Shown here piece after piece: positions 65 through 40,952 of a stretch of DNA of 40,952 nt. Origin of the DNA: a virus; the IMG/VR virus record IMGVR_UViG_3300033141_003738, positions 1 through 40,952 of that record, one strand, 5' to 3'. Below the pieces are notes generated by a model. That model was given only the letters and a program-made list of their open reading frames with translations, searched no databases and had not been told where the DNA came from. How positions within the stretch are numbered: position 1 is the first letter of the stretch; each line of letters starts with the position of its first letter. A program made the translations under genes and the position numbers.

Positions 65-370
65 TTACCTTGTTATTTTTTTTATATGTAATTCTAAAAT
101 CGCTTTTGCTGTAGCAATCGCTGCTGATTCTTGGATTGATAGATCATTCTCAACGCAATAAACATCTGTTGTTTTTAGACCGTCAAACCATATTAAGTGA
201 TAGTCTTCAATATCATGCCTGCAAATGTTTATAAATATTTGCTTGCTTAGTTTTTCCCAAACTGGGATTAGTTTGCCTAAAGATTTATCAAAACTATAAT
301 ATCCAACGCTGTGTGGGTCATTGTAATTCATAAACTTTATAATTATCTTATTGGCTTCTTTTGGTTTCAT
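65..370 (-). CDS. Hypothetical protein, 101 aa
   Basis: I do not recognise this protein. It is a soluble mixed alpha/beta sequence of 101 residues, basic at both ends. Its C-terminal part reads as an amphipathic helix (SIQESAAIATAKAILEL). The unrelated-looking 136-aa protein at 2836-3246 has a similar helix after a similar D-x-SIQ motif (DISIQSAFIMAIATRI), so the two may be distant paralogues. The ATG follows AAGGTAAGTAA, a usable ribosome site. It is the last gene before the window edge on the minus strand. Its transcript probably starts at the promoter at 535-563 and passes a terminator-like hairpin (385-453) just before the ATG, so expression may be attenuated. It is orphaned from the early block and lies downstream of the adhesin gene. 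Confidence 0.7.
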   Translation of the reverse strand: MKPKEANKIIIKFMNYNDPHSVGYYSFDKSLGKLIPVWEKLSKQIFINICRHDIEDYHLIWFDGLKTTDVYCVENDLSIQESAAIATAKAILELHIKKITR

Positions 371-3394: not shown

Positions 3395-3418
3395 AAAAAA
3401 CTCCTGTTTATTTTATTT

Positions 3419-3427
3419 ATTATAACA
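3419..3427 (-). promoter_or_regulatory. Extended -10 promoter of the leftward operon
   Basis: Minus strand TGTTATAAT, a perfect extended -10 element, lies 25 bases before the ATG at 3394. The expected -35 position holds TGTATC, a poor match, and overlaps an ATACAC box of the iteron block. This suggests that a protein bound to the boxes could repress or activate the promoter. Confidence 0.5.
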
Positions 3428-3442
3428 CAATAAGTTATAATG

Positions 3443-3866
3443 ATACACCACATTGTGTACGTTTTAGTGTATTTTTAGCCATGCGTTAAGTTAATGAATT
3501 AATTGATTAATACACTGCATAGTGTATTTTGCCGTGTATGGTCGTAAATCGTTGAAACCCTTTGCTGGATTGCCTTTAGCCTATTTAGTGTATAAAGTGT
3601 ATGTTTTTTTCAACTTCTTTTTTATATATGCGGTTCTTTTTTTTCGTTTTTTTTGATTTTTTATAAAAAAACTAATTTCCATTATGAATCTCAATAGAAA
3701 AAAAGTATACACTTTATACACTAAATCACCATATTTCAATCATACTCGGCTTGTCGGCTATTTATAACTATACACGGCAAAATACACTGTGCAGGGCATG
3801 AAGATAATAATTTCATAGACTTGACGCGACTTCGGAAAATACACTAATTTATACATTTTATACACT
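3443..3866. repeat. Iteron block and nested palindrome, candidate replication origin
   Basis: The 7-mer ATACACT or its complement occurs ten times: 3466, 3510, 3521, 3587, 3596, 3707, 3716, 3782, 3839 and 3860. There are further near matches at 3443, 3533 and 3770. The boxes sit in mirror order. A perfect 20-base arm pair (3583-3602 with 3707-3726) and a 24-base pair with one mismatch (3515-3538 with 3771-3794) share the same centre. Between the inner arms lie 104 bases dominated by T- and A-runs, as in a duplex-unwinding element. The primase-helicase gene is the first gene to the right. The arrangement fits an iteron-type origin or a large operator array. Confidence 0.6.
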
Positions 3867-4107
3867 GTGCATAGCAAAAAAAATAAAATTAGTTTAAAAT
3901 CAGTTGGATTTTCTAAGAAAAATTTATACGTAATGTATAAATTAATTATAAAATAATATATGTTTAAGGATTTTTAAAAATACAACATTTTGCGCAAAAA
4001 ATGTTTTTTTATTTGCATTATCGTTATTTTTATTTAAAAATTAATTATCAAATTTTGGATGTGACAAATCAAAATACAAAATTTACCGGTCTTTGACCGT
4101 TAAAATA
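3867..4107. other. AT-rich leader between iterons and primase
   Basis: No gene is visible here. Inverted repeats are: AATTTATAC 3921-3929 with GTATAAATT 3935-3943; the palindrome TTTTGCGCAAAA at 3988-3999, inside a larger AACATTTT/AAAATGTT hairpin; and CGGTC 4087-4091 with GACCG 4095-4099. A weak promoter (TTGCAT at 4013-4018 and TAAAAA at 4035-4040) could serve the primase or a short RNA. Confidence 0.4.
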
Positions 4108-4160
4108 GACTGGCCTTGCAAACCTATGTCACATTCTTTTGTAGGGCCAGTCGTTTTTTT
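4108..4160 (+). terminator. Strong intrinsic terminator just before the primase gene
   Basis: GACTGGCCTTGCAAA (4108-4122) pairs along its full length with TTTGTAGGGCCAGTC (4138-4152), counting two G-U pairs. The loop is 15 bases, and GTTTTTTT follows directly. The T-run ends ten bases before the primase ATG (4170). It therefore acts either as an attenuator for the primase operon or as the end of a short RNA made from the origin region. Confidence 0.7.
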
Positions 4161-4169
4161 GGATAGTGA

Positions 4170-6572
4170 ATGGATCTATTTGAACAAGCTAGGCAAAAAA
4201 TAAACCAAGGATTGATACAATCAATATATCCTAATGGAAAATCCGAACTTGATGAATATTATATTTTATCACCACTTAGGAATGATAAAAATATTGGTTC
4301 ATTTCACATTAATTTAAATTCTGGGTACTGGGTTGACCACGCCACAAGTGAGGGTGGAGACTTTATTGATTTAATAAGTAAGGATAAAAAGATTTCAAAA
4401 AAAGAGGCTGCCGAACTTATTATTGATGATAAAACAATAAATAAACCAATTCAACCAAGAAAAAAAATAAAGGAGAAGCCAAATCATCAAGCAATGGTTA
4501 TTGAACAAACAGAAGAAAGGAAAAAGCAATTAATTAATTTTGTTAGTTCTGATTTCTTTAAGGAAAAATTTGGAAAAGTTGCCGACATTTGGGATTATAT
4601 TAATTCTAGAAACGAATGGAAATTTAGCACAGTTAAATTTTCAAAAAAAGATGGATCAAAAGACATAATTCCCTTTTATTTAAACGAATATAATAAATGG
4701 AAATCAGCAGGCGCTGTAAATGCAATTGGAGTACCCGAACCCTTTAATATAAATAAAGTTGAGAAAGGCGATAAAATATTAATAGTCGAGGGAGAAAAAT
4801 GCGCTAGCTGTAAAGTTGAGGGGTATACACTTGTTAGTTGGTGGGGTGGGACACAAAGAGTTGATAAAACAGACTGGTCTGGCCTTGAAAAAATAAAAGA
4901 TATTATAATTTGGCCTGATCATGATAAACAAAGAGATAAAGTAAATAACAATCTTTTCCCTAAAAGAAAACAACCAGGCTTTAAGGCCGCTCTTCAAATA
5001 CAAAACATACTCCCGCAAGCAAAAATATTAAATATATATCGCTGGGGAATAGATGAAACCATTAAGAATGGTTGGGATATAGCAGATCACATTGAAGAGG
5101 GAAAAGACCCATTAGATTTTATAAAAGAGTATAAACCCAGAGATTTTATATCACCAAAGATAATTAAAGAAATGTTTATAGATGATTTTTATTGCGGTGG
5201 ACTGAAGCAATTCAATGGCTTTTTTTGGGAATATATTAGTAAGAAAAAATATTGGAAAGGTATAAGCCTAAAAGACCTATACTGTAATCTACAGTATTGG
5301 CTTGATGATACTGGATTACAAGAGGATATAGAACGAGATACTTGCGGCAAAGATAATAAATTTATTTCAAATGTTGAAGCTTACTTAAAAAGGCATAGGA
5401 GAAAAATAGAGGATAACCCATTTTTAAAAGCGGCCATAAATCCATTCATAAATATGAGAAATGGTGTAATTGAAATAATTCACGACAAGTTTAAATGGCA
5501 TCCGGTAAAGGAAAAAGATGAGTTATTTTTTAAAGACCTTCATATGGTTAATGTACTTGATTTTGATTTTGATTTTAAAAACAGAGACAAAGTTTCACCA
5601 GAAAAAGATTGCCCTGTTTTTTATAAATTTATAAAAGATGCAATTCCCAAAGAATATCTTATTGATAATGATCCAAACGAAGCATATAAAGAGTGTCTGG
5701 ACTTTGTTACTCAAATATTAGCATACACTGTTAGTCCAATAAAAAAGAGGCCATTATTTTTTGGCATAATTGGGGAGCAAGAAACAGGTAAAACCTTTCT
5801 AGTGAAAATAGTAAAAGAGTTCATTGGTAAAGAATTTACTGTTGATGTACCCATGAAAGAATGGTCAAACAGATTTTTTGCTCATTCACTATTGGGAGCT
5901 AAAGCTATAGTCGAACCAGACATGAAGCAAAGTGAAAAAATACCTGAAAATATAATAAAAATGTATAGCGGTGATGTAACAGTATCTATTGAAGGTAAAA
6001 ATAGAGACAGCGAACATGGTGTAGATATGTCTTTAGCAATATTTATAGTATCTAATTACAGCTTTAGGACAAGTGCCCTAGAGGGATTAGAAAGAAGATT
6101 AGTATTATTTCCATTTAAAAACAAATTATCTAAAGAAGATACCGACGATTTTATGTTAGAAAGAATGGTAGGTAAACATGTTAATTATAGCGGTATAACA
6201 AAAGATGAAAGGCCCGCAATAATGGCGCTAGTATTAAGAGCATGGATTAAGCTTTGTTCAAACAAATTCCATATTGATTCGCCTGAATGGTCTAAATGTG
6301 AAAAGAAAAAATGGGTACTTGAATCAAATACTGTTAAAAACTTTATTAACGATAGATATACAAAAATGGCAACAGAAGAAATAATTAATAAAAAAGACTT
6401 TTATAATACTTATAATCTTTGGTGCATAGAAGAGGGCCACGATTTTCCGTTTAAGAAAAATAGATTTTTTGAAGAAGTCTTTAGAGATAGAAGATTTGTA
6501 TTAAAAAGAAACTCAATAACTAATAATATTCATATTGAACCAGATAAAACAAATGAAGATATTCCATTTTAA
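4170..6572 (+). CDS. Primase-helicase (TOPRIM plus D5/DUF5906-type helicase), 800 aa
   Basis: This protein probably primes and unwinds DNA at the phage origin. Residues 1-90 resemble the primase zinc-binding-like N-domain (SFHINLNSGYWVDHAT) but without the cysteines, so metal binding may be lost. A TOPRIM domain follows, with VEGEK at 206-210 and WPDHD at 248-252, the two acidic motifs of that fold. The C-terminal half is a superfamily 3-type ATPase: Walker A GEQETGKT near 535, a VSNYS sensor segment and an ERR arginine pair near 640. Length and order fit phage and plasmid primase-helicases with DUF5906. The start is the first ATG. Only GGA lies before it, a weak ribosome site, which fits low or regulated output after the upstream terminator. 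Confidence 0.9.
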   Translation: MDLFEQARQKINQGLIQSIYPNGKSELDEYYILSPLRNDKNIGSFHINLNSGYWVDHATSEGGDFIDLISKDKKISKKEAAELIIDDKTINKPIQPRKKIKEKPNHQAMVIEQTEERKKQLINFVSSDFFKEKFGKVADIWDYINSRNEWKFSTVKFSKKDGSKDIIPFYLNEYNKWKSAGAVNAIGVPEPFNINKVEKGDKILIVEGEKCASCKVEGYTLVSWWGGTQRVDKTDWSGLEKIKDIIIWPDHDKQRDKVNNNLFPKRKQPGFKAALQIQNILPQAKILNIYRWGIDETIKNGWDIADHIEEGKDPLDFIKEYKPRDFISPKIIKEMFIDDFYCGGLKQFNGFFWEYISKKKYWKGISLKDLYCNLQYWLDDTGLQEDIERDTCGKDNKFISNVEAYLKRHRRKIEDNPFLKAAINPFINMRNGVIEIIHDKFKWHPVKEKDELFFKDLHMVNVLDFDFDFKNRDKVSPEKDCPVFYKFIKDAIPKEYLIDNDPNEAYKECLDFVTQILAYTVSPIKKRPLFFGIIGEQETGKTFLVKIVKEFIGKEFTVDVPMKEWSNRFFAHSLLGAKAIVEPDMKQSEKIPENIIKMYSGDVTVSIEGKNRDSEHGVDMSLAIFIVSNYSFRTSALEGLERRLVLFPFKNKLSKEDTDDFMLERMVGKHVNYSGITKDERPAIMALVLRAWIKLCSNKFHIDSPEWSKCEKKKWVLESNTVKNFINDRYTKMATEEIINKKDFYNTYNLWCIEEGHDFPFKKNRFFEEVFRDRRFVLKRNSITNNIHIEPDKTNEDIPF

Positions 6573-7639: not shown

Positions 7640-7858
7640 ATGGATAGATTAATCGGAATGTTTATTAAAACAAGAAGAAATAAGTATAAACTAACTAAAG
7701 TTGAATTAGGTAGCATGGTGAATATTTCGCGAACATCAATAGCAAATATAGAAAGTGGTAAACATAAGGTAGCTTTTGAAACAATGTTAAGTCTTTCAAG
7801 GGCACTGAATTTCAATATTAATGAGATTACAAGACTATACAAGGGGGTTAAGAAATGA
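7640..7858 (+). CDS. XRE-family helix-turn-helix regulator, 72 aa
   Basis: This is a single Cro/C1-type DNA-binding domain. Residues 14-52 carry the classic layout: LTKVELGSMVNISRTSIANI forms the helix-turn-helix, followed by ESGKHKV and a helix with ALNFNI. At 72 residues it is almost only the domain, as in Cro proteins and small transcriptional switches. It sits in the early operon, two bases after the coiled-coil gene, and its stop overlaps the next start (ATGA). It could bind early operators such as the ATACACT boxes, but no target is shown. No CI-like partner with a protease or dimer domain is present. Confidence 0.85.
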   Translation: MDRLIGMFIKTRRNKYKLTKVELGSMVNISRTSIANIESGKHKVAFETMLSLSRALNFNINEITRLYKGVKK

Positions 7859-9015: not shown

Positions 9016-9434
9016 ATATTAAAATAACAAAAGAAGAAATAATTAAAAGACTAAATCAAGTTAGGACTAAGAAATGCCAAGAAGTCAGTATTACTTTCAA
9101 GGCATTTGACGCATATAATTCAATTGATATTAATGGCGATAGTTTTTGTTATTTTGAGGATTTTGAAAAAATCTACTATCAGTTGTATATTGAAAAAATC
9201 GAAGAGGCTAACAATGAACTAATGAATAGGCGCAACAATGTTGATCACAATAAGACAATTCAAATACCAGACAATAACTGTATGGAATGTATTTTTTGTT
9301 TAAACATGATGTTTAATTCTGGTCACTGTGATTATTACAAAAAAGAGGTTGATATATATAGAGGAAATGAAGCAAATGCTAAAAAACCAGATTGGTGTAA
9401 ACTTCATCATGTAGATGTTTGGAGGACAACATGA
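9012..9434 (+). CDS. Cysteine-containing hypothetical protein, 140 aa
   Basis: The N-terminal 75 residues are a helical, charged domain. The C-terminal half has a cysteine/histidine series (C-x2-C-x2-C near CMECIFC, then GHCDYY and WCKLHH) suited to zinc or iron-sulfur binding. The start is a GTG after AAGGAT, overlapping the 15-codon frame. The stop overlaps the next ATG (ATGA). No family is recognised. Confidence 0.7.
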   Translation: MNIKITKEEIIKRLNQVRTKKCQEVSITFKAFDAYNSIDINGDSFCYFEDFEKIYYQLYIEKIEEANNELMNRRNNVDHNKTIQIPDNNCMECIFCLNMMFNSGHCDYYKKEVDIYRGNEANAKKPDWCKLHHVDVWRTT

Positions 9435-9604
9435 AAATACAAATTTACAAAGACAAAAAAGGTGAATGGCGATTTAGATTTAAGGCCAGGAATGGTAGAA
9501 TTCTATGTTGTAGTGAAGAAAGTTATAAAAATAAAAAAACTATGATTAAAACAATTGAAAGAATCGCTTACAATTTTTCAATTAGCGATATTGTAGAAAT
9601 ATAA
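9431..9604 (+). CDS. YegP-like protein (DUF1508), 57 aa
   Basis: The sequence has the compact beta-beta-alpha signature of the YegP/DUF1508 family: IYKDKKGEWRFRFKARNGRI, then a Ser-Glu-x-Tyr segment, and a helix with TIERI. Family members usually hold one or two copies of this roughly 50-residue unit; here there is one. Their biochemical role is not known. I chose the ATG at 9431 with GGAGGACA before it, overlapping the previous stop. It is unusual in a phage early operon. Confidence 0.8.
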   Translation: MKIQIYKDKKGEWRFRFKARNGRILCCSEESYKNKKTMIKTIERIAYNFSISDIVEI

Positions 9605-14900: not shown

Positions 14901-15338
14901 TTAGCAAGTGCAATTAGCGTTAGATTGCGTAGCATAACAAACATCTTTTATATTAAGCTTGAATGAATCAATTTCTTTTATTTTCATTCCTTTTAAAAAT
15001 CTTTTAAAAGTAGCACCACTATTTAAAACCGCTCTACTCCCTCTCAATTTACCAAAATATTGGCCCAAAAGAATACATCCCATTGTGTGGTCTTCAGTAT
15101 TTCCAGAATGTATTAAGATATGATTTCTATTAGGTACATTTTTCACCTCAAAAGTATTGCCATATTTAGGTGAATTAACCCTTTCACATATATAGCTACC
15201 TTCAGGTATACATGAAATATTTTCTTGATTATTTAAATCTTCTGGTTCTAGTGTTGCGCAGAAGGCTATTTTATCAATTAATAAAACCCCTATTGTCCCT
15301 TGATCTGTTTTTTCAATTCTAAGTAAATCTAATTTCAT
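14901..15338 (-). CDS. DUF5675 protein, candidate lysin, 145 aa
   Basis: The sequence follows the DUF5675 pattern: an early strand region, ISCIPEGSYICER, then NHILIHSGNTEDHTMGCILL at 72-91. The cluster His77, His84 and Cys88 resembles the His...His-Gly-Cys active site of YkuD-type L,D-transpeptidases, so it may act on peptidoglycan. DUF5675 genes are often found beside holins in phages, and no other endolysin is visible in this genome. It has no signal peptide, so it would need the holin for export. GGAGG precedes the ATG. Enzymatic activity is inferred, not shown. Confidence 0.65.
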   Translation of the reverse strand: MKLDLLRIEKTDQGTIGVLLIDKIAFCATLEPEDLNNQENISCIPEGSYICERVNSPKYGNTFEVKNVPNRNHILIHSGNTEDHTMGCILLGQYFGKLRGSRAVLNSGATFKRFLKGMKIKEIDSFKLNIKDVCYATQSNANCTC

Positions 15339-36350: not shown

Positions 36351-38279
36351 CTAAATTTCTCCAAAATTGTTTTCGGCCCATTCCCAAAATTGTTTTTCAT
36401 TTACAGATTCTTCTCCTGCCGCAATGCACATATTATGTATAAAAACTTCTTTTGCTAATTCTGCATAGATGAAACAGTCCATTGCCTCGTTTGCCCTACC
36501 ACCAGCGTCAAATATTATTCTCATTCTACCATTAACATTTTTAGTTATCGGTCTTTCTGCTGTTAGTTGATCAAAAAACTTTTGTTCCATATCAATTGGA
36601 AACATCAAGTAACCAGTAGGATATTGTCCGGTTATATTATCGCGACGTAAAGCAAGTTTATTGTACAGTCTTCTTTTAATAATATTGGTAGATAATTCAT
36701 ACATTTTAAGTGGTCTCATATATGCGTCTGAAAATCCCACTATTTCTACTTCTTTAAAATATCTTGATCCCTCATTTTTAGAAATATAATTATGTCCCAT
36801 TATTGGGAAAACATTTTTAGCGCCATTGCAGAATTTATTTACTTCATCTGTTTGATGTCGACTATCTATAAATATTATAACCGGCATTATTGGAAAATCT
36901 TTTTTCATTATTTTTTCTTTTAATTCTGCAAAAGCTCCACTAGTATAGTCATTCGTTTCACCTTCTATTATGTAATGAGCAATTAACCAAGTTCTATTAT
37001 TTGCGCCATGGCCATAAAGACTAGCTTCAATCCTTGGCTTTTTGATCCACTCACCAGCTCGTTTATTTCCTGCCTGGACATCACATCCAAGAGTTGTAAA
37101 TAATGGTTTACCGTCATTTTTATCTGGTAAATTATCTTGATAATATTTTCCTTTAAGCGAGTGAAGTAATTCAGCGGCTGGTCTATCTGCATAGTCCTCA
37201 AATGGTTCACCAAGTTCAAGATTAATAAAAGTTTGTAGTTTCTCTGGATCACCCTGGGCATTAACCCATTTTTGCGCAAGTTCAAACCATGATCCAAATT
37301 CAGGTCTTAAAATTAATGCAGAAAAATGATAGCTTTTGGTTTTTGGCTTAGCATTTTTTGTATTCTCTGGAATCCATTTACATTTACCACCTTTAGATTC
37401 ATCTACAAGCATTTCGCTTCTTTCGTGTTCCTTTATTTTATATTTACAATGCTTACATTCATAATAAACACTACTTTTAATAACTTTTTTATTTTCATCT
37501 GTCTCATATTTTAAATTTGAAAGAATTAATTTCTGTAATCCACCACATTTTAAACAAGGAACATTATAATATCTTTGGTCACCTTCTTTAAAGGCTGGGC
37601 TTATTACAGATGTTTGCTTAATTAGTGGGGTGGATATTCTTAAAATTTTTCTTCTACCACTATATGCCCTACTTCTTGCCCTAGCAACTTCAACAAATTT
37701 ACCTTGCTTGACACCCCTTTTAACTGCATTTGCTGCCTCTTCTTCTTCTTCTAATATAACGCCCTGATAACTTATTTGCCTAATCTGTGAAATTTTACCA
37801 TAGGTTTTTATATCTAACCTACCACCCGGCCATGTTTTTAATTTTGCCTTGTTGCCTTTGCCGCCGTGTTGTGATGCTTTTTGAATTTTGCTTGATAGTT
37901 TTTTTATAGCTCCAGATGCTTCTAGCATTGGATCAAGCCTTTCATCATTCCAAGTTTCAACAAGTTCATCTGTTGCAGTTACGGCTAAGATTGGCCCCGG
38001 GTCTTCTAATATTTTAAATAGAATATATGGTTCAGTTGCTCCCGCTGTTCCACCACCTTGTGAACATTTCATAACAACTATTTCTTCAGTATCACTTGAA
38101 GGTGAAAGTTCCATTGCTATTTCAATCATGTGTGGTGTTCTTGAATATTTTTGCAATCCTGGAAAGGGTGATCCTTTAGGAAATATCCTTCTTTTCTCGG
38201 CAAGTTCAACAATGTTAGACTGTTTTTTCTCACTGGGAAGAGTTTTTATTTTATTTATAACATATTCTATTTCATTCAT
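36351..38279 (-). CDS. Terminase large subunit (lambda gpA family), 642 aa
   Basis: The protein cuts concatemers and drives DNA packaging. The N-terminal ATPase carries MKCSQGGGTAGA at 70-81 as a Walker A-like loop and GVILEEEEEA at 173-182 as Walker B, where Glu takes the place of the usual first Asp. A zinc pair (CLKCGG and CKHCK at about 243-280) follows. The nuclease domain includes LGCDVQAG and IFIDSRHQTDEV. The match is to the gpA family of cos phages. The ATG overlaps the stop of the methyltransferase gene. Confidence 0.9.
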   Translation of the reverse strand: MNEIEYVINKIKTLPSEKKQSNIVELAEKRRIFPKGSPFPGLQKYSRTPHMIEIAMELSPSSDTEEIVVMKCSQGGGTAGATEPYILFKILEDPGPILAVTATDELVETWNDERLDPMLEASGAIKKLSSKIQKASQHGGKGNKAKLKTWPGGRLDIKTYGKISQIRQISYQGVILEEEEEAANAVKRGVKQGKFVEVARARSRAYSGRRKILRISTPLIKQTSVISPAFKEGDQRYYNVPCLKCGGLQKLILSNLKYETDENKKVIKSSVYYECKHCKYKIKEHERSEMLVDESKGGKCKWIPENTKNAKPKTKSYHFSALILRPEFGSWFELAQKWVNAQGDPEKLQTFINLELGEPFEDYADRPAAELLHSLKGKYYQDNLPDKNDGKPLFTTLGCDVQAGNKRAGEWIKKPRIEASLYGHGANNRTWLIAHYIIEGETNDYTSGAFAELKEKIMKKDFPIMPVIIFIDSRHQTDEVNKFCNGAKNVFPIMGHNYISKNEGSRYFKEVEIVGFSDAYMRPLKMYELSTNIIKRRLYNKLALRRDNITGQYPTGYLMFPIDMEQKFFDQLTAERPITKNVNGRMRIIFDAGGRANEAMDCFIYAELAKEVFIHNMCIAAGEESVNEKQFWEWAENNFGEI

Positions 38280-39312
38280 ATTCTACTTTAAACCACTGCT
38301 TTGCAATTTCTTTCGATATTTTATACATCATTAGTGGTGGTACAGACATTCCCATTTGGTAAATAGGTTGTTTAATATCACAAAAATTATAATCAGTTGG
38401 GTAAGAGCTCCCCAACATATGTTCCTCGTTATATAATTTTCTTGGTTCATGTGGATGAAATAAACCAACACTTGCGCGATATCCCGAAGCTGTTATAGTT
38501 GGTAGCGGAAGTTCTGGGTTTATTCTTACAGCATTAAACCAAGACCCATTTGCTACTGTGGAAAAAGATTTTCCAATTTCACAATTCTCCCAATAATTTC
38601 TAGACTTTTCAGTCAGTTCCCTGCTTATTGTGCCATTTTTTAATAATATTTCTTTTGCAGGAATTGTTTTTTCGTTAAAATCTAGATTTATTTTTTTTAA
38701 ACAAAGATCAGCTCTTCTACAAATAAAAAAAACCCTTTCCCTTTTTTGAGGTAAGCCCATGGTTGCGCCATTAAGCAAAAAAACTTGAATATCATAGTCA
38801 ATCTCTTTAAATTTTTTTATGATTTCCTTGGTATATCCCTTGGCTTTTCCAAGAATTATACCTTTAACGTTTTCAGCTATGACAATTTTTGGTTTTAGCT
38901 TTTTTGCCAGGTCGATATAGTGAAAAAATAAATCATCTAATATTTGATCCGATTGACCTTCTCTGAATTTATTTTTTTTACCCCATTTCTTTTCCCTGGA
39001 ACCTGACATGGAAAAGCTTGAACAAGGTGGTGATCCGTCGAGTATATCTAGATTATATAGTTCTTCTGGTAAATCTTCTCTTAACTTGAATTCCTGTATG
39101 CCTTCTAGATAATGGTATTTAGGGTTATGATTTTTTATATAAACGCTCATCATTTTAGGGTCAATTTCATTGCAACCCAAAACATTAAAACCTGACATTT
39201 TGTATCCCATGGTTGATCCACCGCCGCATGAGAAGCATGAGAAAACATTAAGCTTGTTTTTTGTAACATTTTCTAGGTCGGTTAATTTCCATTTATATGT
39301 AAAGTTATTCAT
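38272..39312 (-). CDS. DNA (cytosine-5) methyltransferase, 346 aa
   Basis: All key motifs of C5-methyltransferases are present: FSCFSCGGG (24-32, SAM binding), GSPPCSSF with the catalytic Cys97, ENV (147-149), and QKRER (189-193). The C-terminal motif QMGMSVPP is also present. I chose the ATG at 39312, which overlaps the stop of the ParB-like gene; the ATG at 39342 has no ribosome site. It probably protects phage DNA from host restriction. There is no restriction enzyme nearby. The target sequence cannot be told. Confidence 0.9.
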   Translation of the reverse strand: MNNFTYKWKLTDLENVTKNKLNVFSCFSCGGGSTMGYKMSGFNVLGCNEIDPKMMSVYIKNHNPKYHYLEGIQEFKLREDLPEELYNLDILDGSPPCSSFSMSGSREKKWGKKNKFREGQSDQILDDLFFHYIDLAKKLKPKIVIAENVKGIILGKAKGYTKEIIKKFKEIDYDIQVFLLNGATMGLPQKRERVFFICRRADLCLKKINLDFNEKTIPAKEILLKNGTISRELTEKSRNYWENCEIGKSFSTVANGSWFNAVRINPELPLPTITASGYRASVGLFHPHEPRKLYNEEHMLGSSYPTDYNFCDIKQPIYQMGMSVPPLMMYKISKEIAKQWFKVEYE

Positions 39313-39940
39313 TATATTCAAATCCACATCTAGGGCATTCATTTTTTAAATCATTGCCAAACGTTTCAGTATCAATTTCTTTGTTTTGATTATTGCTATT
39401 CTGCGAACTTTCTACTTGATTATTTTCTTCATTATCTTTATCTGGTTTCGGATTTTTTTTACTAACTATGGTTTCTTCTATTCCATTAACCATTTTATTT
39501 AGTTCATCAATGTTAATTTTGCCCAATTGGACAAAGTTTAAGCAACCCAAAATAGAAGTATTTATTTCTTCATGTTTTAAAAAATCAGTAAGACCTTCTT
39601 TCCTTATCCTTCTCCCGTAATCCTGCTCTTTTTTTAAAAGCTTTGTTTTTGCATCTGCTCTATTTCTTGCAATAATATAAACTACCGGTAAATCTGGTAT
39701 TCCATACCCCTCTTTTTCTAGTTCTTTATATATTTCTTGCCTGCCGTGACCATCCCAGATATATTTTTTATTTTCATTTTTCCAAATAAATGTTGGATAA
39801 ATTATTCCCATTGATTTTATTGATTCCTTTAAATCTCTTCTTCTGCTTTCATATTCAAAGTTTTTTAAATTACCTTGAAATGGAATTAAATCAGTAAATT
39901 TTTCAGTATATCCAGTTTGCACGTTAATTTCAATATCCAT
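39305..39940 (-). CDS. ParB-like nuclease-domain protein, 211 aa
   Basis: The protein has a ParB/Srx-type N-domain: DLIPFQGNLKNF, ESRRRDLKESIKSMGIIYPT and IWDGHGRQEIY (61-71), where GHGR is the conserved box. The middle is helical, the last third Asn/Asp/Glu-rich, and the final CPRCGFEYNE is half a zinc ribbon. ParB-like genes often sit before phage methyltransferases, as here, with overlap. The protein may steer or control modification of phage DNA. It is not a plasmid partition ParB by length or layout. Confidence 0.8.
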   Translation of the reverse strand: MDIEINVQTGYTEKFTDLIPFQGNLKNFEYESRRRDLKESIKSMGIIYPTFIWKNENKKYIWDGHGRQEIYKELEKEGYGIPDLPVVYIIARNRADAKTKLLKKEQDYGRRIRKEGLTDFLKHEEINTSILGCLNFVQLGKINIDELNKMVNGIEETIVSKKNPKPDKDNEENNQVESSQNSNNQNKEIDTETFGNDLKNECPRCGFEYNE

Positions 39941-40182: not shown

Positions 40183-40737
40183 CTAGTTATTATTTCCGGT
40201 TGATTCTTTAAGTTTTTTTTCAACTTGTGAAATCGTTAATTCAATTGCTTCTGTTATTGGTTTGGTTAATATTTTTATTTTTTCTGATCTTGGTAATTCA
40301 TTTAAAATTGCACTTTCCATTTCATCGACAAAGCCTTGTGGTGAATCAAGCATGTTGATATTTAAAGCAGATAAATAGTCAAAACATGTTGAGGCAATTA
40401 ATTCCCTGTCAATCAAAGACCCTTCTAATTCTTGAACCTCTAATTCAAGTTTTTTATATTTTAAAACATCTTGGCCTCTTTTTGCATTAATAGAACTTTG
40501 AACTAGTGGATCTTGCTCTATTTCTGGAACACTATAATTTTTTCTTTTTTCTTCAGCTATTGACTCAATGTTTTTATCTAATTCAATATCTGCAATAAAT
40601 GCTGCATTAAGCTGATCATTAATATCCATTTTCCCATTAGGCAATGCATTAAGTGTTCCTCGCTTAATTCTTTGGTTTATAGCTCCCCTGGTTCTACTAG
40701 TTTTTTCCGCAAATTTTGATTGAGAAATAATTGACAT
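40183..40737 (-). CDS. Terminase small subunit (Nu1-like), 184 aa
   Basis: The first 30 residues form a helix-turn-helix (SQSKFAEKTSRTRGAINQRI), followed by long charged helices (DVLKYKKLELEVQELEGSLI). This is the layout of small terminases that recognise the packaging site. It is the first gene of the late operon and the nearest gene to the window end, as Nu1 is to lambda cos. AAGGATG precedes the ATG. The GC-rich repeats at 40886-40912 are candidate binding sites for it. Confidence 0.75.
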   Translation of the reverse strand: MSIISQSKFAEKTSRTRGAINQRIKRGTLNALPNGKMDINDQLNAAFIADIELDKNIESIAEEKRKNYSVPEIEQDPLVQSSINAKRGQDVLKYKKLELEVQELEGSLIDRELIASTCFDYLSALNINMLDSPQGFVDEMESAILNELPRSEKIKILTKPITEAIELTISQVEKKLKESTGNNN

Positions 40738-40943: not shown

Positions 40944-40952
40944 ACGTCGAAA
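40944..40952. repeat. Right copy of 9-base terminal direct repeat
   Basis: This is the second copy of ACGTCGAAA, identical to 1-9. Together they mark the physical or assembly ends of the genome. Confidence 0.55.

Follow-up and report, generated by a model that had tools for sequence, protein, structure and literature searches.

A nested, mirrored iteron array upstream of a primase-helicase gene as a probable replication origin in a contractile-tailed phage

Described iteron origins and the array under study

The Streptococcus phage Sfi21 (NC_000872) carries a segment annotated as "302 bp non-coding region, origin of replication" and as a phage inhibitory sequence, in which short boxes paired 8 bp apart form a mirrored pair around an AT-rich core of about 80 bp. 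Origins of PICI satellites "always" consist of two iteron sets around an AT-rich region, in the words of PMC6092414, and the account of SaPI Rep in PMC7581432 assigns recognition of the iterons to the C-terminal domain of the protein. The α protein of P4 unites a primase, an SF3 helicase and a C-terminal winged-helix domain in one polypeptide, its origin-binding domain being the winged helix (PMC10516667), and the annotated P4 ori and crr contain 8-bp iterons, many of them 9-11 bp apart and in both orientations. Finally, the D5-type helicase Cch2 of SCCmec needs AAGTG iterons and binds specifically via its C-terminal domain (PMC7581432).

The DNA analyzed here, which we call the window, is the whole 40,952-bp IMG/VR virus record IMGVR_UViG_3300033141_003738. 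It encodes a GpA-type terminase, a portal, a head protease, a tail sheath and a tape measure protein, and it therefore belongs to a contractile-tailed phage. At 3443-3866 it contains an iteron array that is a candidate replication origin. The array is wholly intergenic, inside the gap 3395-4169, and gene direction diverges there, with a leftward block on one side and a primase-helicase gene on the other. The initial annotation of this locus knew of no named phage origin with such a plan; this was mistaken, as the annotated origin of Sfi21 shows it. Like the window array, the Sfi21 origin adjoins the gene for a D5-type primase-helicase (hhalign 99.9%) and has paired, mirrored boxes and an AT-rich core. 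It differs in that its box is GTAACTAA, the array lies downstream of the helicase gene, a second exact shell was not found in it, and a separate polymerase/primase gene precedes the helicase gene.

As described in PMC6092414 and PMC7581432, PICI and SaPI origins share with the window two iteron sets with an AT-rich melting region between them, and a self-loading helicase recognizes their iterons through its C-terminal domain. Their box sequence is different from that of the window, and SaPI primases are of the AEP type (PMC7581432), whereas the window encodes a TOPRIM primase. Moreover, PICIs are satellites with the ori downstream of rep, while the window represents an entire phage that has genes for terminase, portal and tail. 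Classification as a PICI (satellite) origin proper was rejected, given an array upstream of the helicase gene and the presence of terminase, portal, sheath and tape measure genes. The P4 system is unlike the window in that ori and crr are separate and no single mirrored two-shell array exists. The SCCmec origin resembles it in its D5-type helicase and in a box with an AGTG core, but only three direct iterons, and no mirrored set, are described in PMC7581432. By analogy with these systems, we regard the window array as belonging with origins of the Sfi21, PICI and P4 type, as a new example rather than a new kind of system.

No close relatives of the phage were found in viral and genome contigs when its primase was used as the query, and the best matches to its terminase were only 25-30% identical. 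BLASTN of 3395-4169 against phages and plasmids, a check suggested at the outset, gave no match, and Rfam no hit. The leftward block had been described as an early operon, a label not borne out by its four proteins, for which no confident family matches were obtained; by eye, the protein of 611 aa (628-2463, leftward) contains a LamG/concanavalin-like stretch and looks fibre-like. The block may thus hold a fibre gene rather than early functions. Elsewhere in the window we noted a DUF1508 protein of 61 aa (9419-9604), a DUF5675 protein of 145 aa (14901-15338) and, at 38272-39940 between the terminase subunit genes, a DNA methyltransferase together with a small protein that weakly matches a DNA-methyltransferase PHROG. 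A 9-bp direct terminal repeat, ACGTCGAAA, occupies both window ends (1-9 and 40944-40952), and the terminase small-subunit gene (40183-40737) adjoins the window end; the arrangement looks like a complete genome with cohesive (cos) ends.

Boxes, mirror symmetry and AT-rich core

The box ATACACT, or AGTGTAT when read in the opposite direction, occurs exactly ten times within 3466-3866, with starts at 3466(-), 3510(+), 3521(-), 3587(-), 3596(-), 3707(+), 3716(+), 3782(+), 3839(+) and 3860(+). The whole window has 15 copies where 5.0 +/- 2.2 are expected, and every other 7-mer stays at six or fewer copies per 401 bp genome-wide. When 5000 intergenic regions were simulated with matching dinucleotide make-up, none had more than two copies of ATACACT; when any other 7-mer was considered, low-complexity words included, ten copies were reached in 5 of 2000 simulated regions.

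The boxes are arranged as nested shells. Innermost are two AGTGTAT boxes 9 bp apart on the minus strand (3587-3602) and two ATACACT boxes 9 bp apart on the plus strand (3707-3722). Outside them, the left shell (3510-3539) consists of ATACACT and AGTGTAT as an inverted pair separated by 4 bp, plus the near-copy CGTGTAT at 3533, and the right shell (3770-3794) of the near-copy ATACACG at 3770 plus ATACACT at 3782. At the periphery are a minus-strand box on the left (3466-3472), with a near-copy ATACACC at 3443, and two plus-strand boxes on the right (3839 and 3860, together 3839-3866), with a near-copy ATACATT at 3851.

Much of the geometry described in the initial annotation, including the count of ten exact copies in about 400 bases, was confirmed, with some refinements. 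The 20-base arms enclosing the inner pairs (3583-3602 and 3707-3726) are indeed perfect, pairing at 20/20 positions. The 24-base arms are mirrored as claimed but imperfect, with 23/24 positions paired and a mismatch at 3520; over 3515-3539 and its mirror 3770-3794, 24/25 positions pair. The two 43-bp stretches between the shells are equal in length on both sides, and 20/43 of their positions are mirrored (chance about 24%). The proposed common centre at 3654.5 is the best dyad in the 41-kb record, with 93/150 matched bases against 69 for the next best and a genome-wide mean of 41.7 (sd 6.0). Mirror order is exact for the inner pairs and the outer shell, in which the near-copies at 3533 and 3770 are partners, but the remaining boxes follow it partly or not at all: those at 3466 and 3839 are mirrored to within 2 bp only, the partner of the one at 3510 is a degenerate word, and the one at 3860 has no mirrored partner. 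Likewise, the stated spacings of 9 and 11 bp hold for two pairs and for one inverted pair, respectively, but spacings of 12 bp (near-copies) and 21 bp also occur. The exact two-shell mirror symmetry and a site upstream of the presumed initiator gene are the distinctive traits of the array.

Between the inner pairs is a core of 104 bp (3603-3706) that is 81% A+T, in agreement with the AT-rich core originally noted, and has T-tracts on the plus strand. Its duplex stability is in about the lowest 5% among 100-bp stretches, making it a candidate melting site. An alternative candidate is the AT-rich flank to the right of the array (3876-3980), which is among the genome's two least stable 100-bp stretches (rank fraction 0.0005). 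Cumulative GC skew, which had been proposed as a check and was calculated for a circular molecule, reaches its lowest point at 3787, within the array. Because gene direction switches at the same point, this minimum is not independent evidence, and we take it as consistent with an origin rather than as proof of one. Further to the right, on the plus strand, a hairpin with a 15-bp stem (4108-4152) precedes a run of seven T, the whole spanning about 4108-4160 (z = -3.5, 0/200 shuffles); located before the primase ATG at 4170, it resembles a terminator, an attenuator or a leader element.

The adjacent primase-helicase and recurrence of the plan

The gene to the right of the array, correctly recognized at the outset as encoding a primase-helicase, specifies a protein of 800 aa (4170-6572, plus strand) in which a TOPRIM primase is joined to a D5/DUF5906 SF3 helicase and which is the likely initiator. 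The protein matches PHROG 1156 (E=1e-29) and DUF5906 (E=2e-7), while Pox_D5, at 0.005, fell below the cut-off. The TOPRIM motifs E-G-E and D-x-D are visible in the product, and the Walker A, sensor and arginine-finger columns are conserved in the family alignment. BLASTP of the window helicase against P4 α gave E=2e-7 over the helicase part. With family profiles, which contain other phage proteins besides that of the window, P4 α was aligned through the C-terminus (hhalign 99.5%), and the best match among solved structures was 7ola/7om0 (E=1.5e-51), entitled "DNA primase", which we take to be the SaPI5 primase-Rep. A single-sequence search with the window protein alone found nothing significant among solved structures.

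The segment encoded by 6201-6554 (plus strand) is predicted to form a C-terminal winged-helix domain that may bind the boxes, based on an AlphaFold model, the P4 α alignment and a weak match of the family profile to RFX winged helices. The helicase core of the model has low confidence (mean pLDDT 54.5), and its C-terminal ~115 residues (model residues about 253-370) have block pLDDT values of 57-85, mostly about 70. They form helices, ending in three helices and a two-stranded wing, and D5-family helicases rank first in a Foldseek search of the model. The tail of a D5-type helicase has previously been likened to the P4 α origin-binding domain and to RFX1 (PMC10516667). The primase-helicase gene adjoining the array thus appears to encode a putative origin-binding domain at its C-terminus.

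How widely such arrays accompany D5-type helicases was surveyed at loci around helicase relatives in phage records and IMG/VR, 16 groups including the window, by comparing the most clustered 7- or 8-mer in 450 bp with shuffles from a second-order Markov model. The iterons annotated in P4 are recovered in this way. In about 13 of the 16 groups, a tally made by hand from scans whose window and word lengths were chosen by eye, the strongest cluster exceeded all shuffles, and in 12 of these it adjoins the helicase gene; none of nine control pieces taken at a distance from replication genes contained more than four copies. No convincing array was seen in the few kb scanned around the D5-type genes of JCL1032, L046/L047 and LincolnB. 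Box sequences vary by group, several arrays are mirrored, pairing at ~9 bp is frequent, and the AT-rich core measures roughly 65-130 bp. Mirrored boxes surround such a core in L037 (three plus-strand boxes, 82 bp of 79% AT, three minus-strand boxes), L039/L041 (two minus-strand boxes, 75-79 bp, two plus-strand boxes), L043/L044, phiSP119-3, DSP2 and Sfi21. In most relatives the array lies downstream of the helicase gene, whereas that of the window lies upstream, and this difference counts against the origin reading.

The boxes AAGTGTCC, AAGTGTAA and AGTGTTAC have an AGTGT core in common, comparable to the AAGTG of SCCmec, but we do not claim it as a rule because the boxes of other groups (TTGGAAGA, TCCCCTAA and GGTTTCCA) lack it. 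Two IMG/VR loci, L030 and L034, have AAGTGTAA / AGTGTTAC arrays and very similar helicases, with iterons that differ in sequence; they are possibly a natural case of initiator-iteron co-variation.

A pattern built from the window boxes only, (box-2-box)-90..120-(box-2-box), was also run against IMG/VR and 257 Gb of genomes, and it matched three records. Two of them, L003 and L004, are near-identical, agreeing at 99.9% in the part that they share. A DNA primase gene (phrog_3022) follows the L004 array at a distance of 1.3 kb, and L003 has the same array in an examined stretch that stops short of this gene. The third, L049, is an archaeal MAG contig whose mirrored AGTGTAT array (4141-4436) falls within a primase/helicase-like gene (phrog_19930). 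When the boxes were scrambled at constant composition, neither of two such patterns had a match in IMG/VR, the database that these controls cover. The original boxes with a 60-89 bp core gave no match. All three records resemble the window in their mirrored AGTGTAT pairs 9 bp apart around a core of about 80-105 bp. The helicases of L004 and L049 are not alignable with that of the window, which counts against the origin reading; box and spacing thus recur although no homology of the initiators is visible. In L003 (1008-1252) and L004 (3450-3694), AGTGTAT is combined with ten TGAATACA boxes, the extra ones clustering at one side, and near the L049 array a minus-strand gene (5477-6244) encodes a protein with a CAP12/Pycsar TIR effector domain. 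It is conceivable, though we consider it rather unlikely, that mirrored AGTGTAT pairs 9 bp apart around a ~100-bp core are an origin code common to unrelated primase-helicases of phages and an archaeal element. If so, the PICI-type origin would be a general solution for self-loading helicases in bacterial and archaeal mobile elements, and the winged helices of those helicases would read related AGTGT-like boxes.

Interpretation of the array and its implications

The array could instead be a large operator through which a repressor or activator, such as the XRE-family protein encoded at 7640-7858 or the primase-helicase itself, controls the leftward block and the primase gene with no origin function. 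Its position in a divergent intergenic region speaks for such a reading, an attenuator-like hairpin precedes the primase gene, and an XRE-type regulator, a DNA-binding protein whose presence weighs against an origin, is encoded nearby. Nevertheless, two mirrored sets at fixed spacing around an AT-rich core of ~100 bp exceed the needs of a single promoter, the number of promoter-like sites (7) is below that of shuffles (12.7), and the plan tracks D5-type helicase genes across unrelated phages. We therefore judge a purely regulatory role to be improbable. Autoregulation by initiators is common, and it could coexist with origin function.

Still less probable, in our estimation, is a partition centromere of the parS/parC kind, with iterons round a promoter, in a plasmid-like prophage. 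The parC site of plasmid R1 has two iteron sets flanking a central region, a layout shared with the array, but the neighboring gene encodes a probable replication initiator and no motor protein, and no ParA, ParM, TubZ or ParR-like protein was detected among the proteins scanned, a set that covers the small ORFs in part. An equally poor prospect is that the DNA acts as a folded strand, whether a cruciform, a protelomerase target or a single-strand origin hairpin. In favor of this, 3510-3800 as one strand folds far better than shuffles do (-53.6 kcal/mol against -20.3 kcal/mol, z = -10), but this strength follows from the inverted orientation of the boxes. The stretches between the shells are poorly mirrored in sequence and exactly equal in length, a combination more in keeping with the spacing of proteins than with strand pairing, and the centre is a non-palindromic core of 104 bases, unlike a protelomerase site such as N15 telRL.

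We thus favor the symmetric iteron origin already suggested in the initial annotation as the best-supported reading: 3443-3866 is very probably a bidirectional origin on both box sets of which the primase-helicase would assemble to melt the DNA between them. Pointing to it are the observed boxes, their symmetry and core, the family and domain order of the adjacent helicase-primase of self-loading type, the skew minimum, the matches of the window-derived pattern beside or inside primase-helicase genes, and the reappearance of the plan next to helicases of this family, annotated origins included. According to the model that we envision, whose principle has precedents in SaPI Rep and SCCmec Cch2 (PMC7581432) and in PICI origins (PMC6092414), the product of 4170-6572 would use the winged helix at its C-terminus to bind the AGTGTAT boxes. 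Since the box sets oppose each other in mirrored order and at set distances, a helicase assembly may form on either side of the 104-bp core, the two being opposite in orientation. As a double hexamer, these would then melt the core or the weaker flank at 3876-3980, and each ring would load onto its strand by itself, with no separate loader. Each ring would presumably move outward and prime, so that bidirectional theta replication starts.

Iteron arrays of this sort adjoin D5-type helicases in the window, in Sfi21 and in about ten IMG/VR or phage groups. Since they recur beside phage D5-type helicases, the plan may guide the prediction of origins in many phages that lack annotation. The unusually exact two-shell symmetry of the window array makes it, in addition, well suited to testing how two opposed rings may be built by a self-loading helicase.
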